Positions 7,865 through 20,418 of a DNA stretch of 20,418 nucleotides are shown here, one piece after another. Position numbers and translations under genes: made by a program. Where the stretch lies: positions 1 through 20,418 of the IMG/VR virus record IMGVR_UViG_3300046464_000588; one strand, given 5' to 3'. This DNA comes from a virus. Below the pieces are notes generated by a model, which saw only the letters and a program-made list of their open reading frames with translations, was not told where the DNA came from and did not search any database. Numbering within the stretch: the stretch's first letter is position 1; every line of letters starts with the position of its first letter.

Positions 7865-8719
7865 GTGGCTAGACCGTTTCCTAAAAAGATATCCCAAATT
7901 AAACCCACACTTAGTAATGTTGCACAAACATCTCATTTTGCAGTAACATTCGGTGGTTTTCATCCCAATCTAAGCACTCATTTAAAAAGAAAGGGAATTG
8001 ATAATAGATATGCACAAGAAAAATTATCACTTTTATGTTGTAGAGCGTCTTTACCTGGAAGTGGTTATGCAACCGCAGATGTAATTGGAAATTATACTGG
8101 TGTCGCAGAAAAATTTGCACACACAAGAACATTTGTACAAATGTCAATGGATTTTTATGTTGATGACGATTATAAGTCAATGAAGTTTTTGGAACATTGG
8201 TTAGAATTTATGTCCAATGGTTCATCTTTTGATAATGCAGATCCATTAAAAGATGGATATTACTATAGAATGAGGTATCCAAATCAATATAAGTGTGATG
8301 AAACTAGAATTGTAAAATTTGAACGAGATTATAAAAATTATCTTGAGTATAGATTTATTGGAATGTTTCCAATTTCTTTGGATGCATCTACAGTATCATA
8401 TGAGGGATCTAGAGTCTTAAAAGCAACTGCAACGTTTAATTATGATAGACATATTGCAGGAAGATCACGATCAGTCGATAAACTTCTTAAACGAGATAAC
8501 AATGATGAACCATCATTTGCTGAACAGGTCAGAGCAAAAAATCTTGATAGACTTGATGACATCAATGGGTTTGCTCAGAGACCATTCAATGCGGATCTTG
8601 ATGGTGTTCAAAGGTTGATTGCTGATGGTAGATTTTTAAATAGTGGATCGGGTGGATCAACTATTATTTCTGAAGGTATTTCTGCTGCATCGGGTGGAGG
8701 TGGGTCCAGAACTGCCTAA
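7865..8719 (+). CDS. gp54: Baseplate tail-tube initiator, gp54-like
   Basis: A 284-aa tube-fold protein. It resembles T4 gp54, which with gp48 forms the first rings from which tail-tube polymerisation starts. Supporting segments are CRASLPGSGYATADVIGN and SMDFYVDDDYKSMKFLEHWL, then GMFPISLDASTVSYEGSRVL and ATFNYDRH; T4 gp54 has a comparable IPISVSAPELSYDG...VTFAYRV end. The last 30 residues are a Gly/Ser tail. The start is GTG 7865 (next in-frame Met is far inside the conserved core), with only a weak ribosome site. A role as a tail-tube protein (gp19-like fold) is an alternative, since gp54, gp48 and gp19 share this fold. It opens the plus-strand structural operon. Confidence 0.72.
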   Translation: MARPFPKKISQIKPTLSNVAQTSHFAVTFGGFHPNLSTHLKRKGIDNRYAQEKLSLLCCRASLPGSGYATADVIGNYTGVAEKFAHTRTFVQMSMDFYVDDDYKSMKFLEHWLEFMSNGSSFDNADPLKDGYYYRMRYPNQYKCDETRIVKFERDYKNYLEYRFIGMFPISLDASTVSYEGSRVLKATATFNYDRHIAGRSRSVDKLLKRDNNDEPSFAEQVRAKNLDRLDDINGFAQRPFNADLDGVQRLIADGRFLNSGSGGSTIISEGISAASGGGGSRTA

Positions 8720-8750: not shown

Positions 8751-9467
8751 ATGCCTTTACCAAAAATTTCAACTCCAACCTATGAGTTGACAATCCCTTC
8801 AACTGGAAAGAAGATTAAGTATAGACCTTTCCTTGTTAAAGAAGAAAAAGTTCTTATCATTGCTATGGAAAGCGAAGATATGAATACTATTGCCAGTGCT
8901 GTCAACGATGTTATTAAAAGTTGTATAATTACTCGCGGTATAAAAGTAGAAGATCTTTCAACATTTGATATTGAATATTTGTTTTTAAATATTAGAGGAA
9001 AATCTGTAGGAGAAGAAGTAGAAGTACTTATTACTTGTCCTGATGATAACACAACTAAAGTACCTACAATAATTGCACTTGATGAAATTCAAGTTATATT
9101 TGATGAGAAACATAGCAAAGATATTAAACTTGATGATACCTTAACGATGAGATTAAAGTATCCATCAATGGAAGAGTTTATCAAGAGTAATTTTGCATTA
9201 AGCGATATTAGTGTTGATGATACTTTTGAAATTGTAATGTCTTGTATTGAACAAATTTACAATGAAGAAGAATCATGGTCAATCAAAGATTGTACTAAAA
9301 AAGAACTTAAAGAATTTGTCGAGCAATTAAGTTCTAAGCAGTTCAAACAAATTGAAAATTTCTTTGAAACAATGCCAAAACTTTCCCATACAATAACTGT
9401 AACAAATCCAAATACTGGAGTAGAAAATGATGTTGTACTTGAGGGATTAGCAAGTTTTTTCGTATAA
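8751..9467 (+). CDS. gp26: Baseplate hub assembly protein gp26 (tail-chaperone-like)
   Basis: A 238-aa member of the T4 gp26 family (T4_baseplate, PF12322 as I recall), needed for assembling the central baseplate hub. Typical segments are KYRPFLVKEEKVLIIAMESE (24-43), STFDIEYLFLNIRGKSVGEE (70-89), CPDDNTTKVPTI and LKYPSMEEFI. The C-terminus is helical (ELKEFVEQLSSKQFKQIENF). It lies just after a tube protein and before long tape-measure-like genes, the place where other tailed phages encode tail-assembly chaperones. Its last codons contain the slippery heptamer TTTTTTC at 9455-9461, so a share of ribosomes may shift to -1 and fuse the 60-aa ORF after residue 237. ATG 8751 has AGGA 4 nt upstream. 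Confidence 0.9.
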   Translation: MPLPKISTPTYELTIPSTGKKIKYRPFLVKEEKVLIIAMESEDMNTIASAVNDVIKSCIITRGIKVEDLSTFDIEYLFLNIRGKSVGEEVEVLITCPDDNTTKVPTIIALDEIQVIFDEKHSKDIKLDDTLTMRLKYPSMEEFIKSNFALSDISVDDTFEIVMSCIEQIYNEEESWSIKDCTKKELKEFVEQLSSKQFKQIENFFETMPKLSHTITVTNPNTGVENDVVLEGLASFFV

Positions 9468-9481
9468 GTATGGCTCATACT
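9441..9481 (+). promoter_or_regulatory. Predicted -1 ribosomal frameshift signal joining gp26 to the 60-aa ORF
   Basis: Three elements of a bacterial -1 frameshift site occur in order. GAGGGA (9441-9446), SD-like, lies 8 nt before the slippery site. The slippery heptamer T TTT TTC (9455-9461) is in the correct register for gp26 codons TTT TTC. After a 5-nt spacer there is a hairpin, AGTATG (9467-9472) with CATACT (9476-9481) and loop GCT. The zero-frame stop TAA is at 9465-9467. After the shift the ribosome reads CGT ATA AGT ATG and enters the 60-aa ORF in frame, giving a 300-aa product. The hairpin also covers the downstream ATG, which has no ribosome site at normal distance. Confidence 0.75.
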
Positions 9482-9652
9482 GATCTTGAGTCATACTTTA
9501 GAATTAATTTTGCACTGATGCAACACCATAAATATAGCTTGACAGAACTTGAAAATATGCTTCCGTGGGAGAAAGAAATATATCTTTCTCTATTACAACA
9601 GCACGTTGAGGAAGAAAATTTAAAAGCACAACACCAACAGATGAATGGTTGA
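9470..9652 (+). CDS. Small helical gp51-like ORF, probably the frameshift extension of gp26
   Basis: Sixty residues, mostly helical: MAHTDLESYFRINFALMQHH, then KYSLTELENMLPWEKEIYLS and LLQQHVEEENLKAQHQQMNG. The pattern LPWEKEIYLSLL recalls the xPWE+xIY motif of small tail-assembly proteins (T4 gp51 and lambda gpT type); this is recalled, not searched. It starts 2 nt after the gp26 stop and is in the -1 frame relative to gp26, with no in-frame stop between the slippery site and its ATG. The ATG lies inside a hairpin stem and lacks a Shine-Dalgarno at normal spacing, so frameshift expression as a gp26 fusion looks more likely than independent initiation. It overlaps the next gene by 8 nt. Confidence 0.8.
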   Translation: MAHTDLESYFRINFALMQHHKYSLTELENMLPWEKEIYLSLLQQHVEEENLKAQHQQMNG

Positions 9653-11189
9653 AATTTCACCACTAATAGCAAGAAGATCTAGAATTTCTGCTAGTGCATT
9701 TACTGGCAGATCAGATCCTACTGTTACTGAGATTGATCCACAATCAAAAGCATTATTAAACAGTAATTCAATTCAACTTGGATTGGTGTCAAGACAAGTC
9801 GAAAATTTGTCTGCAAGAGTAAATCAATTATCAAATTCTTTACAAGCGGTAAGAAATAATTTAGCAACTTCTCAAGCATTAGAGAGACAAAAAGAAAATC
9901 AAGAACAAATATTAGCGACAAAACTTGCTCAACAAAAATTAAGGGAAGGAAAAGAAAGTGCAATTGAGAAGAAGATAACAGTAGCAGCATTTAAACCTAT
10001 TAATAAATTAGGTAGAACGGCACAGTCTTCTTTGTCCGGTTTGAGTGATATTTTTAAACGTCTTTTTGGTGCCTTCTTAGCATTTAAGGGAGTGGAAACA
10101 ATAAAGGCACTTGCAGAAGGTAATACTGAAAAATTAGAAGAAATTAAGAATCAAGTATTACTAACAGTTGGTGGTTTTGTAGGTCTAAGTCTTGCAGTTA
10201 AAGTTGCAACTGGAGGTTTAAGTTTAGGTTTCCTTAAACTTTCAGGGCTCCTTGTAGTTTTGGGAGGATTAGCATTTTTTAAAGATGATATTAAGAATCT
10301 TGTTAAGGATTTTTGGGGTCAATCATTTAGAAGAGTTAGAGATAGAAGACGAAATAGTGAAAATAATGGTCAAGGTGGACCAGAGAATCCCGATCCAGTA
10401 ATTGATTACCAAAATCAAGATCCCGACATAGAACCCCAAAAATCTCCAACAAGTGAAGTAAAACCTTCATCAGAACCTGAAGCACCAAATATTGGTTATG
10501 AATGGTGGAGAAATATTATTACTGATAGTACACCAACATCGATGAAGAGAAGAAGAGAAGAAGAAAAAATACAACCACCATCAAAACAGAAAGAAAATGA
10601 AGAAAATAAAACTGATATCCAACCAAATCCCACTAAACCTGAAATAGAAGGAAGCAATAATACTGATGAGAGTAATTTAAACGACAAAGGTGACAATATT
10701 GAACCTCAACCAAAGGGTCCTATTCCACTTGATGTCATACCGTTTAAAGATCCTCAATCTGAACCAAAATCGCAGTCAAAACCACAAAGTTCTTTACTAC
10801 CTACAAGTAGAGAGCAAGAATTTAGGAAGAAAACTGCTGAAAGAGAATCACGTCCTGAAAACCAGGTTGGTGCGAAGGTAACAGATCCTGAAATCCTCAA
10901 AATGATTGAAGAGGAAAAAGAAATTGGTAGAACAGGAAAAATGCCTACCAATATTGTACCAATTTATAAAGATAAAGGAGATATTATTAAAAATGTGTCT
11001 CAATCAACTGATAATCAATCTATAAATGTTGTACCTATGCCAATACCAATGGATTCTGGAGGTGGTCAACAGCAGGTGAATGTAAGTTCTGGAAGTATTG
11101 GGGAAGGTCCTGGAGTTTCAATTTCTTCGTCAAATCCTGACAATCCATATATTCTTGGTGCATTAGCACAATATAACGTACTAGCATAA
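9645..11189 (+). CDS. Tail structural protein with coiled coil and hydrophobic core, tape-measure-like
   Basis: A 514-aa protein with no family I can name firmly. Residues 40-112 form a likely coiled coil (LVSRQVENLSARVNQLSNSL and on, Gln/Lys/Glu-rich). Residues 133-212 are hydrophobic and Gly-rich, with two membrane-compatible stretches near 171-187 and 190-211 (GLLVVLGGLAFF). Residues 230-450 are a disordered Pro/Glu/Lys/Asn linker. The C-terminus has INVVPMPIPM followed by a Gly/Ser-rich end and NPYILGALAQYNVLA. Its place after gp26 and the gp51-like ORF is where tape-measure genes sit in other phages, and a hydrophobic helix in an extended protein fits that role; T4 gp29 (590 aa) would be the counterpart. 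The start ATG 9645 overlaps the 60-aa ORF. Confidence 0.78.
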   Translation: MVEISPLIARRSRISASAFTGRSDPTVTEIDPQSKALLNSNSIQLGLVSRQVENLSARVNQLSNSLQAVRNNLATSQALERQKENQEQILATKLAQQKLREGKESAIEKKITVAAFKPINKLGRTAQSSLSGLSDIFKRLFGAFLAFKGVETIKALAEGNTEKLEEIKNQVLLTVGGFVGLSLAVKVATGGLSLGFLKLSGLLVVLGGLAFFKDDIKNLVKDFWGQSFRRVRDRRRNSENNGQGGPENPDPVIDYQNQDPDIEPQKSPTSEVKPSSEPEAPNIGYEWWRNIITDSTPTSMKRRREEEKIQPPSKQKENEENKTDIQPNPTKPEIEGSNNTDESNLNDKGDNIEPQPKGPIPLDVIPFKDPQSEPKSQSKPQSSLLPTSREQEFRKKTAERESRPENQVGAKVTDPEILKMIEEEKEIGRTGKMPTNIVPIYKDKGDIIKNVSQSTDNQSINVVPMPIPMDSGGGQQQVNVSSGSIGEGPGVSISSSNPDNPYILGALAQYNVLA

Positions 11190-11190
11190 A

Positions 11191-12672
11191 ATGAAATCAC
11201 TAAAGAAAAATAGAGACAGTATAGAAGGAATTAGAAAATCTTTACTTTCATTTGGTAAGGGTATTACTTCTGCTACCTCAATATCTTTTGGTATTAGTAA
11301 AGACCTTGTACGTGGAAATACAGCAAAGAAAAGTGCTATTTTCTCAAAATCAAGACTATTCAATAAGAGAAGACAGTCTGTCTTAAGAAGGGAAAAGGAA
11401 GGTATAATTGAAGCGAATCAAATAGGTAATATCAATAATGCTTCTCCTACTAAAAGGATATCATCAAGCACAAAAGGATTGTTAGGACGAATAATGGATG
11501 CACTTGGTGCAATTTTGATTGGTTGGGGAATTGTCAATCTTCCTAGAATAATTGAAGGTGTAAATAATCTAATAAAAAAGATACAAGATATTATAGAAGT
11601 AACTAGAACTTGGTATGAAAATACTATTAATTGGTTTACTTCACTCACGAGTGATCTTGATGATAAATTAAATCAATTGAGAAATATATCTTTTGACTTT
11701 GATGGTGATACCGAAAATATAGAAAAAAGTGCTGCCGAAAATAAAAATATATTTGCTGATATAATAAAAAGACTTGAGGAAACTATTGATTTTTGGAGGA
11801 ATGGTCCTCCTCCGATGGAAGGACCAGAAGCACCCAGTCAAAATAATAACACTGTAAACCCATCATCATTCAGTGGAAGAAATATGGGTGGAAGTCCTAA
11901 GGGTTTACTAAAATTTATTAGTAGTGCAGAAGGTGGATATGGATCCACATATTCTGGGCATTTGAGTGATTTCTCTAGAGCAGGTGAAGATATCACACAA
12001 ATGACTATTACTCAATTAGTACAATATCAGAAAGATTACCTTGCACATCAAAGAAAAAAGGGTGTTCCAGCAGATTCTAGAAGTGCAGCAGTTGGTGCTT
12101 ATCAAATGTTGTATCCTGATAAGTTTGTCAAAGAAGCAGGTCTTACAATGGGGGATAAGTTTACTCCAGAGAATCAAGATAAATTGATAGTAGCATATAT
12201 GACAGATAGGGGACTGACAGCAGAAAAGGCAGCAAAAGATCCTGTAGGATTTGCTAAAGGATTATCACAAGCATTTGCTGGTGTTCCTGTTGTTGAAGGA
12301 ATGCAAGGTGATGCCCAATATGTAGAACGAGGTCAAAGTTACTATAGGGGGCGGGGAAGTAATGCAGCAACAACCTCTCCAGAAAAGGTTGAAGAGGCAA
12401 TCAAACAGTTTGGTGAGTCATATAAACCAAATACAAATCAATCCAATAATACTGTAAATCCTAATTTGAACGCCAACATACCAACCAATAAATCTACTAA
12501 TTTAGCGTCAAATAATACACCAAAAACAATCCAAGTACCAATTCCAATTAGTACCTCAACATCTCCACCACCAGCACCAAGAACAGGATCAAATCAGGGT
12601 GGTGGTACAAAGATTGTTAGTGGTGGAACTTCGTTAAATAGTTTTATATTCACAGAGTTACAATACACATAA
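11191..12672 (+). CDS. Tail structural protein carrying a muramidase domain
   Basis: A 493-aa two-part protein. Residues 1-205 are basic and then helical, with a hydrophobic segment GLLGRIMDALGAILIGWGIV (96-115), similar in style to the protein before it. Residues 237-385 look like a lysozyme or transglycosylase: KFISSAEGGYGSTY with candidate catalytic E247, MTITQLVQYQ, SAAVGAYQMLYPDKF (298-312), FTPENQDKLIVAYMTDRG. This order resembles the lambda R (GH104) group and other phage muramidases. The peptide NNTVNP flanks the domain at 219-224 and 419-424. The C-terminus has TIQVPIPIST and a Gly-rich end. It is probably a virion enzyme that opens peptidoglycan during infection, the task of the T4 gp5 lysozyme. 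It begins 1 nt after the preceding stop. Confidence 0.8.
   Translation: MKSLKKNRDSIEGIRKSLLSFGKGITSATSISFGISKDLVRGNTAKKSAIFSKSRLFNKRRQSVLRREKEGIIEANQIGNINNASPTKRISSSTKGLLGRIMDALGAILIGWGIVNLPRIIEGVNNLIKKIQDIIEVTRTWYENTINWFTSLTSDLDDKLNQLRNISFDFDGDTENIEKSAAENKNIFADIIKRLEETIDFWRNGPPPMEGPEAPSQNNNTVNPSSFSGRNMGGSPKGLLKFISSAEGGYGSTYSGHLSDFSRAGEDITQMTITQLVQYQKDYLAHQRKKGVPADSRSAAVGAYQMLYPDKFVKEAGLTMGDKFTPENQDKLIVAYMTDRGLTAEKAAKDPVGFAKGLSQAFAGVPVVEGMQGDAQYVERGQSYYRGRGSNAATTSPEKVEEAIKQFGESYKPNTNQSNNTVNPNLNANIPTNKSTNLASNNTPKTIQVPIPISTSTSPPPAPRTGSNQGGGTKIVSGGTSLNSFIFTELQYT
11845..12462 (+). repeat. Direct repeat (NNTVNP) flanking the muramidase domain
   Basis: An 18-bp sequence coding Asn-Asn-Thr-Val-Asn-Pro occurs at 11845-11862 and again at 12445-12462, exactly 600 bp apart. 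The copies differ at three third-codon positions. They sit at the two edges of the muramidase domain. Confidence 0.7.
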
Positions 12673-17580: not shown

Positions 17581-18078
17581 ATGGCAGACACATATTACGA
17601 CGGAGAACAAACATTTGGATCAAAAGCATTCTTTTACGAGAATGCTAATTTTGAAGGTGGTTTGAATTTAGAATCATCTGCAAATGTAAAAGAGATTTAT
17701 GAAAAAATATGTGTTTATGATGGTGCAGCCTACGAAGATATAATCATTGATGTAAATAAAGGATCTCTTCATAATTACACTAAAAATTCGACTGGTAATT
17801 TTGCATTTAATATAAAAAACTTAAAAGGTATACCCACACAAAGAAGTATAGTTGTAACCATACTTATCCCAATGGGTTCCAGTGCATATGTTATGTCAAA
17901 CCCAACTACAACTGGATTTAAAATTGATGATAAACAAGTTGAGGTTAAATGGATAAACTCAACTTCACCATCTTCTGGATTTACAAACGCAGTAAACGTA
18001 TATACATTTGCAATTATTAAAAATAACGCTTCAAATTATACAGTTTTAGGAACTTTGAGTAATTTTGGTGCTGGATAA
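17581..18078 (+). CDS. Small beta-rich tail-fibre-type structural protein (165 aa)
   Basis: Probably a virion surface or fibre-network protein, but I cannot name a T4 homologue. It has 165 residues, one Cys, and alternating beta-type segments: DIIIDVNKGSLHNYTKNSTG, NFAFNIKNLKGIPTQRSIVV, TILIPMGSSAYVM, FKIDDKQVEVKW, and YTFAIIKNNASNYTVLGTL. From memory, this arrangement (a Y-T-x-N-x-T-G-N-F strand, an x-V-x-W strand, then Y-T-F-x-I-I-K and V-L-G-x-L) recurs in fibre and neck proteins of cyanophages. It starts 1 nt after the spike gene's stop codon and its stop overlaps the start of the adhesin gene (TAATG), so it may be an attachment or chaperone partner of that adhesin. Confidence 0.75.
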   Translation: MADTYYDGEQTFGSKAFFYENANFEGGLNLESSANVKEIYEKICVYDGAAYEDIIIDVNKGSLHNYTKNSTGNFAFNIKNLKGIPTQRSIVVTILIPMGSSAYVMSNPTTTGFKIDDKQVEVKWINSTSPSSGFTNAVNVYTFAIIKNNASNYTVLGTLSNFGAG

Positions 18079-20418
18079 TGCCGGTATTTGGAACAAATTC
18101 ATCAATTAACGCTGTTGGATATGGTTTTCTTGGATCAAAACAGAGAACTGTAGAGACCACTATTGCCCCCAGAAATCTAACTGAAGGTAATGTAATTACT
18201 GTCACTGTTACGACCGATGGTTTTGAAAATGGGACAGTTCTTTATTACACTATTAGAGGAAATCTTGGTACAATAACAGCGTCGGATTTTGTAGATAATT
18301 CCTTAACAGGAACATTTACTATCAATAATGATAGTGGTTCTTTCACTAAAGCAATTGCTGCGGATGGTGTTGTTGAAGAAGGTGAAGGATTCGTTATTGA
18401 TATTAGAGAGACTTCACATACATCGAATGTAATTGAAACAACACAGTCAGTTTATATTCAAGGTTCAACTTCAACTGGAGTTGGTGGAGTAGATGATGGG
18501 CAAGGTGGTTCTACATTCCACGATTTTGGTAGTGATGGAAATCTGATATTTGATGCAAATACATCAACATCATACACATATACTGCTGCTACAGACGTAA
18601 AGTTAAAGGCATATCTATGGGGTCAAGGCGGCAGATGTGCAACTAATGGATCTTTAGGTGGACATAGCTATGGAACTTTTAATTTAACTCAAGGTGATCA
18701 ACTTCATATACGTTTGAACTACGGCACTAGTAATGCTGGTAGTGGATCGGGTTCTGGAACAAATGCTGCTTGTGGTGGTGGTGGATTAGCAGGCATTTTT
18801 TCATCATCAACAATCAATCAATCTACTGCCAGACTGATTGCTGGTGGAGGTGGTGGTGGAGTAGGATCAATTGGTGGAAGTTCATCAACAAATGGTGGTG
18901 ATGGTGGAGGAAATACAGGTGTTAATGGCGGCATTGCGAATCAGAGTCAGATAAACTCACAAGGTGGTGGTGGAGGAACACAAAGTGGTGCTGGTGGTGC
19001 TGGAACTGCTGATAGTAGTTTTACTAAGACTACCACATCATATAATTCAAGTTCACGAACAGAGGCAGGTTTGCTTCATGAAAGAAGTGGTGGTGTGAAT
19101 ACTACTTTTGATATTAGTTCAGGTAGTCAAGCTAGTTGTGTTCATCAGAATACCTTTGAATATATTTGGACCGTGAATGAGTCTTATGCTAACAACTCTT
19201 ATTCAGTGTCTGCTAGTAATATGAGTATGGATTTAAACTATCAATCAAATGGAACATATCAACCTCAAGGATTTTATGCTGTAGTTGATAATAAGAGTAA
19301 TAATAGTTTCAGAGTCAGGTGGTATAGAAATGATAATAATACACAGGTCAACGTTAAATACCACACCATTGTTTGTACTGGTGGAAGAAATGAAACCACC
19401 TCTCAGACTGTATCAGTAAGTGCCAATGGTTCTGGTGGCGCAGCATTACAAGGTGGCAATGGTGGTAATGCAGCAACAGGTTTTGGTGGCAATAACGCTG
19501 CTGGGGGTGGTGGAGGCGGTGCTGGATACTATGGCGGTGGTGGTGGAGCAGGTGGTAATGATTTTGGTGATGCTACCCGTGCTGGTAGCGGCGGCGGTGG
19601 TGGTTCAGGTTATGTTCATTCTTCCGTATCTAATGGATTTACTGGTGCATTTTCTTCAGGTTCTTCACATCCAGATAGGGAAGATGCTGGTGATCCTGGA
19701 GAAGATGCAAAGGTAGTATTTGAAGGTATTACTTCTTCTGCGTATGTGAGCACGGGTGGTGATAATGAAACTTATTCAGTTAATGTACCAGCAAATGCTA
19801 CAACAATGACTGCAAAGTTATGGGGTGCTGGTGGAGCAGGAGTTGGTGAATGTCCGTCTAATAGTTTTAGTGGCGGTAGTGGTGGTCACATTGAAGGTAC
19901 AATACCAGTATCAGGTGGAACTGTAGATGTATATGTTGGTGGATCTTCATCTGGTTCTCCATCTGGGTCCGCAGGATATGGTGCAGGCGCTGGTGGAGGA
20001 TTATCCGCTATTAAGTATTCTGGAAATATATTAATTGCTGGCGGTGGTGGTGGTGCTGGTCAAAACGGTCAAGGTGGTGCCGGAGGTGGCAACGGTAATG
20101 GTAGTTCTGGAACTGGACCAAATAATGCTAGTGGTGGAACTAGTAGTGGAGGAGGCAGCGGAGCGCAAAGTGGATCAAGTTGGAATAATGGTTCTAATGT
20201 GAGAAATGGTGGTCGTGGTGATGGTTCTGGATCTGGTCAAGGAAACCGTGGCGGTGGTGGTGGCGCTGGATATTATGGCGGCGGCGGTGCCGGTGGTGAT
20301 GGAAACGGTAACTGTACTGGTGGAGCAGGAGGTGGTGGATCAGGTACCATCTCTGGTTCATGGGTGAATACTGTAAGTCAATCAGGAGAAACGGGAACTG
20401 GAGGAGGTAGGACTGCTA
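18078..20418 (+). CDS. Giant glycine-rich tail-fibre adhesin, 3'-truncated by the window edge
   Basis: The frame from ATG 18078 is open to the right edge, giving at least 780 residues. Residues 1-23 (MPVFGTNSSINAVGYGFLGS) are a likely attachment segment. Residues 25-135 resemble a Calx-beta domain (NLTEGNVITVTVTTDGFENG, VVEEGEGFVIDI). Two homologous glycine-rich modules follow: module 1 from about 155 to 553 and module 2 from about 554 to beyond 780. Each has a Tyr-rich strand, an LWG-GG turn, LIAGGGGG, and GGGAGYYGGGG. Module 1 holds a non-glycine-rich insert at about 312-448. Polyglycine-helix adhesins of this kind form receptor-binding tips in T4-like phages. The ATG overlaps the preceding stop (TAATG). 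Confidence 0.9.
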   Translation, partial: MPVFGTNSSINAVGYGFLGSKQRTVETTIAPRNLTEGNVITVTVTTDGFENGTVLYYTIRGNLGTITASDFVDNSLTGTFTINNDSGSFTKAIAADGVVEEGEGFVIDIRETSHTSNVIETTQSVYIQGSTSTGVGGVDDGQGGSTFHDFGSDGNLIFDANTSTSYTYTAATDVKLKAYLWGQGGRCATNGSLGGHSYGTFNLTQGDQLHIRLNYGTSNAGSGSGSGTNAACGGGGLAGIFSSSTINQSTARLIAGGGGGGVGSIGGSSSTNGGDGGGNTGVNGGIANQSQINSQGGGGGTQSGAGGAGTADSSFTKTTTSYNSSSRTEAGLLHERSGGVNTTFDISSGSQASCVHQNTFEYIWTVNESYANNSYSVSASNMSMDLNYQSNGTYQPQGFYAVVDNKSNNSFRVRWYRNDNNTQVNVKYHTIVCTGGRNETTSQTVSVSANGSGGAALQGGNGGNAATGFGGNNAAGGGGGGAGYYGGGGGAGGNDFGDATRAGSGGGGGSGYVHSSVSNGFTGAFSSGSSHPDREDAGDPGEDAKVVFEGITSSAYVSTGGDNETYSVNVPANATTMTAKLWGAGGAGVGECPSNSFSGGSGGHIEGTIPVSGGTVDVYVGGSSSGSPSGSAGYGAGAGGGLSAIKYSGNILIAGGGGGAGQNGQGGAGGGNGNGSSGTGPNNASGGTSSGGGSGAQSGSSWNNGSNVRNGGRGDGSGSGQGNRGGGGGAGYYGGGGAGGDGNGNCTGGAGGGGSGTISGSWVNTVSQSGETGTGGGRTA
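18540..20418 (+). repeat. Two homologous glycine-rich modules in the adhesin gene
   Basis: The modules start near 18540 and 19740 and align by order of motifs. A near-identical DNA segment coding GAGYYG occurs at 19518-19535 and 20263-20280, with a similar glycine run after each; LIAGGGGG occurs in both. Module 1 has an extra ~137-residue insert at about 19011-19421. Module 2 runs past the window. Confidence 0.7.

Follow-up and report, generated by a model that had tools for sequence, protein, structure and literature searches.

In their review, Atkins and colleagues describe frameshifting of the G-T type as a conserved trait that is widespread among long-tailed phages "except T4" (PMC5009743). 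The tail-chaperone identity of gp26 and gp51 is already published (Vladimirov, Gautam & Davidson, Virology 2022;566:9-15). According to a later paper that draws on that study, T4-like phages include some with both a short gene and a longer, fused one (PMC10885494), and another paper cites it for polyT slip signals in T4-like TAC-N genes (PMC12846349). The notion that gp26 and gp51 belong with the classic tail chaperones, which a sequence-only reading of the present locus had put forward, is supported by the data below but is not new, since papers citing Vladimirov et al. report it. A full-text literature search returned no paper joining the term "baseplate hub assembly catalyst" with frameshifting. 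Similarly, no description of a covarying stem, an internal Shine-Dalgarno (SD) element or start-less relatives was found in the literature, where the 2022 study is represented through the papers that cite it. The locus described here is an additional, well-supported instance of the kind described in 2022, to which it adds sequence and RNA-structure evidence.

The locus lies in a record of a T4-like marine phage from IMG/VR (IMGVR_UViG_3300046464_000588), a metagenomic fragment only, whose 20,418 nucleotides are here called the window. The 20-kb record holds one PF12322 gene, a gp26-family gene that matches this family over residues 9-237 (E = 8.7e-73) and phrog_150 (E = 7e-81) in profile searches, followed by a short ORF of 60 codons, ORF60 (Table 1). 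In our reading, to which we assign a probability of about 0.93, gp26 and ORF60 are probably a single tail-assembly-chaperone (TAC) gene that is decoded in two ways via a −1 frameshift. The evidence read from the sequences comprises the cassette, its conservation, a stem that covaries within the group of relatives with a window-type stem, the missing starts of ORF60, the homology of gp26 and gp51, and the pattern of copy number. Such a gene would imply slippage itself, at some rate, together with a chaperone role for its products and contacts of these with the tape measure and the tail tube.

Table 1. Features of the gp26/ORF60 locus and its neighbours (window coordinates)
Feature	Position	Strand	Remark
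Tail tube-family protein, directly 5' of gp26	7865..8719	+	PF23849, E 1.6e-16; phrog_45, E 1.1e-36
gp26-family gene, putative short form TAC-N	8751..9467	+	PF12322 T4_baseplate; phrog_150
GAGGGA, SD-like, 5' of slip site	9441..9446	+	GAG codon bias
Slippery heptamer T_TTT_TTC in gp26 frame	9455..9461	+	TTTTTTC in 214/220 distinct junctions
gp26 zero-frame stop TAA	9465..9467	+	one codon past slip site
Putative stimulatory stem, 5' arm AAGTATGGCTCA	9466..9477	+	12 bp, −14.6 kcal/mol
ORF60, gp51-type C-terminal domain, putative TAC-C of long form	9470..9652	+	−1 frame; phrog_634
Stem loop, 9 nt	9478..9486	+	folding
Stem 3' arm TGAGTCATACTT	9487..9498	+	covariation at 10th pair
ORF514, directly 3', candidate tape-measure-type protein	9645..11189	+	role inferred from position

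The gene order thus has a tail tube family 5' of gp26 and, on the 3' side, an ORF that is unrecognised as a tape measure in the window. ORF514 had no family match in profile searches, and its identity as a tape measure is not established; its positional counterpart in Vibrio phage ValKK3 weakly matches a tape measure family (phrog_58, E = 1.6e-6), which, together with its position, faintly suggests that ORF514 may be a tape-measure-type protein. A similar-looking hydrophobic stretch occurs in ORF514 and in the consecutive ORF at 11191-12672, which matches "endolysin" families, whereas ORF514 matches nothing. The possibility that the two are one split tape-measure gene was dropped because two genes are found there in relatives too; the relatives' two genes are much larger, and one carries a VanY peptidase domain (L268). 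At the window's end, 18078-20418 contains long frames rich in Val and Gly, of the kind usual in repetitive, glycine-rich structural genes, with no obvious complete gene call.

The 3' end of gp26 reads GAG GGA TTA GCA AGT TTT TTC GTA TAA. It contains, as the sequence-only reading had claimed, a slippery heptamer in the gp26 register with the zero-frame stop right after the slip, and a −1 slip produces FF-R-I-S-MAH, the junction SFFRISMAH that had been predicted. Heptamers of the generic X_XXY_YYZ type are common in this AT-rich window, with about 40 in frame, and the heptamer alone is therefore weak evidence. It is its conservation, both of the heptamer and of its codons, that places it beyond chance. 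The sample consisted of IMG/VR loci and GenBank phages, yielding 220 distinct junctions, 199 of them complete; as these are best matches, near relatives are over-represented, and scans of viral contigs using Vibrio, Klebsiella and Stenotrophomonas relatives added only two, seven and two loci, respectively. Across these relatives the slip site, its register and the −1 relation are kept, bearing out a further expectation of the sequence-only reading, and the slip site stands exactly one codon before the stop in 212/220 distinct junctions. One junction, from a Rhizobium phage, has TTTTTTG, and five lack the heptamer: T4 (L161), with its different gene arrangement, Cygsa01, GR28A, D508 and a copy with an indel (L267).

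TTTTTTC is found in cyanophages and related marine phages as well as in Vibrio, Pseudomonas, Stenotrophomonas, Acidovorax and Pelagibacter phages. Its presence in five distant phages (Vibrio ValKK3, Pseudomonas Milchi, Acidovorax ACP17, Stenotrophomonas Mendera and Pelagibacter Mosig) makes the evidence of conservation independent of the bias toward near relatives. The Phe-Phe pair is written TTT-TTC in all 199 complete junctions, where Phe codon usage would predict about 20%, and the codon preceding it always ends in T, though it encodes S, A, N, D or G. The indel copy L267, a Stenotrophomonas phage contig, is near-identical to Mendera (L175); it has no in-frame heptamer at the junction and reads through into another frame, as expected of an indel in the T run, the cause being either an error in sequencing or natural variation at the slip site. 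A divergent metagenomic relative found with a gp51 query (L265:1-540), 36% identical to the window gp26, keeps both TTTTTTC and a −1 ORF, suggesting that the frameshift signal predates the cyanophage group.

In T4 gp51, residues 1-201 match PF12322 (E = 3.9e-52), and the end of the protein matches phrog_634. The latter family, "baseplate hub assembly catalyst", is also the family of ORF60 (E = 3.9e-27), which in addition matches phrog_150 at positions 239-280 (E = 1.2e-5). On the strength of the PF12322 and phrog_634 matches, gp51 is a paralogue of gp26 to which the ORF60 domain is joined in frame; gp26 and gp51 are thus related, as the sequence-only reading would lead one to expect. In the window, the combination of PF12322 and phrog_634 that marks gp51 is found only in the predicted gp26-ORF60 fusion, ORF60 alone being just the C-terminal segment of gp51. 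Two full-length genes as in T4 were not found; the 20-kb fragment and the complete relatives have one each.

Four of four T4-type records carry two PF12322 genes that are adjoining and divergent, whereas each of 14 other phages checked has one, with the ORF60 part in the −1 frame. The heptamer of these one-copy phages is TTTTTTC in ten and TTTTTTG in one, and is absent from three (Cygsa01, GR28A and D508). In Tevenvirinae, gp26 ends in ...EFF..., with FF written TTC TTT, and has no slip site. Having two PF12322 copies and no slip site, T4 makes both proteins from two genes, and one-copy phages most likely make both by slippage. This difference in copy number indicates that gp26 and gp26-ORF60 are probably a TAC-N/TAC-NC pair. 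The sequence data hence support the earlier equation of gp26 and the gp51-like ORF with G and GT, but with the qualification that in T4 these are two genes and there is no frameshift. The abstract of the 2022 paper by Vladimirov, Gautam and Davidson reportedly names T4 genes 26 and 51.

The layout of the cassette is of the dnaX type, with an SD-like element at 9441-9446, a heptamer at 9455-9461 and a stem from 9466, 4 nt past the heptamer. The SD-like GAGGGA had been noted before, and comparison strengthens the case for it: the upstream Glu codon is GAG rather than GAA by 168:27, as against 1635:3311 elsewhere in gp26 (Fisher p = 4e-51), a bias that fits selection for an internal Shine-Dalgarno-like GAGG.

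ORF60 had been described as open in exactly the −1 frame and as lacking its own ribosome site, and both statements hold among the relatives. No stop interrupts the −1 frame across the slip in any of the 199 relatives, and an SD-like motif suitably placed for an ORF60 start was found in 0/199 relatives and not in the window either. The start position (9470-9472 in the window) is ATG in 157/199 and encodes Leu, Ile, Val or Phe in 42/199, thus behaving as an internal hydrophobic residue; 11 loci are without any ATG, GTG or TTG within the first dozen codons. The residues encoded in the −1 frame between the slip and the ATG are conserved, being R/Q, then I/V/L, then mainly S/A/G. GenBank leaves the ORF60 part unannotated in S-CAM1, S-H9-1, ACG-2014j, ACG-2014d and ACP17.

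The best-surviving alternative is termination-reinitiation, in which translation ends at TAA 9465-9467 and begins afresh at ATG 9470, so that ORF60 yields a free 60-aa protein and no fusion arises. The window's ATG, 2 nt past the stop, and its retention in most relatives are consistent with this notion, as are Cygsa01 (L167), GR28A (L177) and D508 (L178), one-copy phages in which the two ORFs overlap as TAATG without a heptamer, and in which ORF60 may for that reason be separately started. Reinitiation is nevertheless unlikely as the general explanation, because it accounts neither for the invariant T_TTT_TTC nor for the conserved −1 residues ahead of the ATG, and likewise leaves unexplained the 42 relatives that have no ATG and the burial of the window's ATG within the 5' arm of the downstream stem. 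Furthermore, T4 gp51 is the same fusion written in one frame. A free 60-aa protein could still arise by coupled reinitiation alongside the frameshift product, given how often the ATG is kept.

As to the downstream stem, the sequence-only reading had named a 6-bp hairpin with a 3-nt loop (9467-9481). This hairpin can form, but at −2.9 kcal/mol it is weak, and it is intact in only 34/199 relatives; it was rejected as the stimulator and replaced by the 12-bp stem 9466-9477/9487-9498, on which selection acts. When the 50 nt past the heptamer were folded against a null in which the ORF60 protein was kept and synonymous codons were redrawn, the mean z was −3.4 across all loci; for the 135 that have a window-type stem it was −4.1. 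Among these 135 loci the 10th pair is T-A in 88, G-C in 19 and A-T in 18, and eight double compensatory changes at this pair were mapped on the gp26 tree. One arm contributes a third codon position to this pair and the opposite arm a second codon position, so that the protein changes with it (E, A, V), and pairing is therefore kept at the protein's cost. Sliding one arm lowers pairing from 76% to at most 43%. The window stem is missing in about a third of junctions, some of which have another stem and some none, indicating that the stem is a variable helper and that the heptamer and the SD are the fixed elements.

The same evidence bears on the idea that the conserved motif reflects nothing but a protein constraint on F-F at the gp26 C-terminus combined with local RNA folding, with no frameshifting. 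The shared ...EFF... ending of Tevenvirinae gp26 does indicate that the dipeptide is under protein selection. This idea is nonetheless highly improbable, as Tevenvirinae use TTC TTT but the 199 relatives with a −1 ORF all use TTT TTC, and the pairing of the stem exceeds the synonymous-codon null. Hardly more credible is transcriptional slippage at the conserved six-T run, giving mixed mRNAs that encode the fusion: six T are short for slippage by RNA polymerase, and such a mechanism needs no register, seventh-base C, upstream SD-like element or downstream stem.

The predicted fold was compared with known structures as well. The AlphaFold model of the window gp26 (pLDDT 87) has as its three most probable PDB matches 2OB9_B (0.66), 2OB9_A (0.51) and 3FGX (0.44), all non-significant (E 1.9-3.9), with an rmsd of 1.9-3.0 Å over 52-62 columns. 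2OB9 is the HK97 tail assembly chaperone, and 3FGX has been grouped with TACs (PMC9603447). In a library of viral models, the gp26 model matches gp26 relatives and one gp51 (ZZ1). A gp26 profile search against PDB sequences gave no match, and the gp51 model (pLDDT 73) had no meaningful PDB match, 2OB9 falling outside its top 50. The modelled fold of the window gp26 is consistent with a TAC and is not proof of one.

Taken as a frameshifted chaperone gene, the locus would work as follows. Most ribosomes would read gp26 to its stop, yielding the short form TAC-N of 238 aa. A minority would pause at T_TTT_TTC, held there by the 12-bp stem in front and by base pairing between the upstream GAGGGA and 16S rRNA, and would slip back one base to yield TAC-NC of ~300 aa (237 gp26 residues, RIS and 60 aa). 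If lambda G/GT is a guide, coating of the tape-measure protein may fall to the short form and recruitment of tail-tube subunits to the long one. T4 obtains the same two products from its duplicated pair, 26 (short) and 51 (long). More tentatively, and with rather less than even confidence, the stem may have a dual role, both stimulating slippage and hiding the AUG of ORF60, so that ORF60 is translated only within the fusion. Other clades would have lost this stem or exchanged it for different ones and kept the heptamer and internal SD unchanged, and the element in its entirety would have been discarded after the gene was duplicated in the ancestor of T4. No description of such a dual-role stem was found in the literature searched.

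The small "baseplate hub assembly catalyst" ORF beside gp26, annotated or missed in hundreds of cyanophage genomes, would thereby be explained: in all likelihood it encodes the C-terminal portion of a protein made by frameshifting, and gp26 and ORF60 should be annotated as a joined CDS. Frameshifting on the one hand and gene duplication on the other would make a clear case of alternative routes to the same two proteins.

Among described systems, the TAC genes of the Vandenendeviridae and Andersonviridae, as treated for phage Adele in passages of PMC12846349, share a polyT slip (GTTTTT) at the 3' end of TAC-N and a −1 part annotated as a hypothetical protein or as intergenic. They belong to other phage families, and those passages mention no stem (PMC12846349). 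E. coli dnaX has the same three elements, namely an upstream SD, a slippery heptamer and a downstream stem, but its A_AAA_AAG leads to a shorter product, whereas U_UUU_UUC would here lead to an extended one. With lambda G/GT, the locus shares a short and a −1-extended product (here predicted), a slip site at the 3' end of the first ORF and a tail tube gene upstream. The slip heptamer of lambda G/GT differs from TTTTTTC, and the present locus has a conserved SD-like element and a stem. With T4 genes 26 and 51 the likeness is one of homologous proteins, gp26 corresponding to PF12322 and gp51 to PF12322 plus an ORF60-like tail; the difference is that T4 has two divergent genes and no slip, whereas the window and its relatives have one gene and a −1 ORF.
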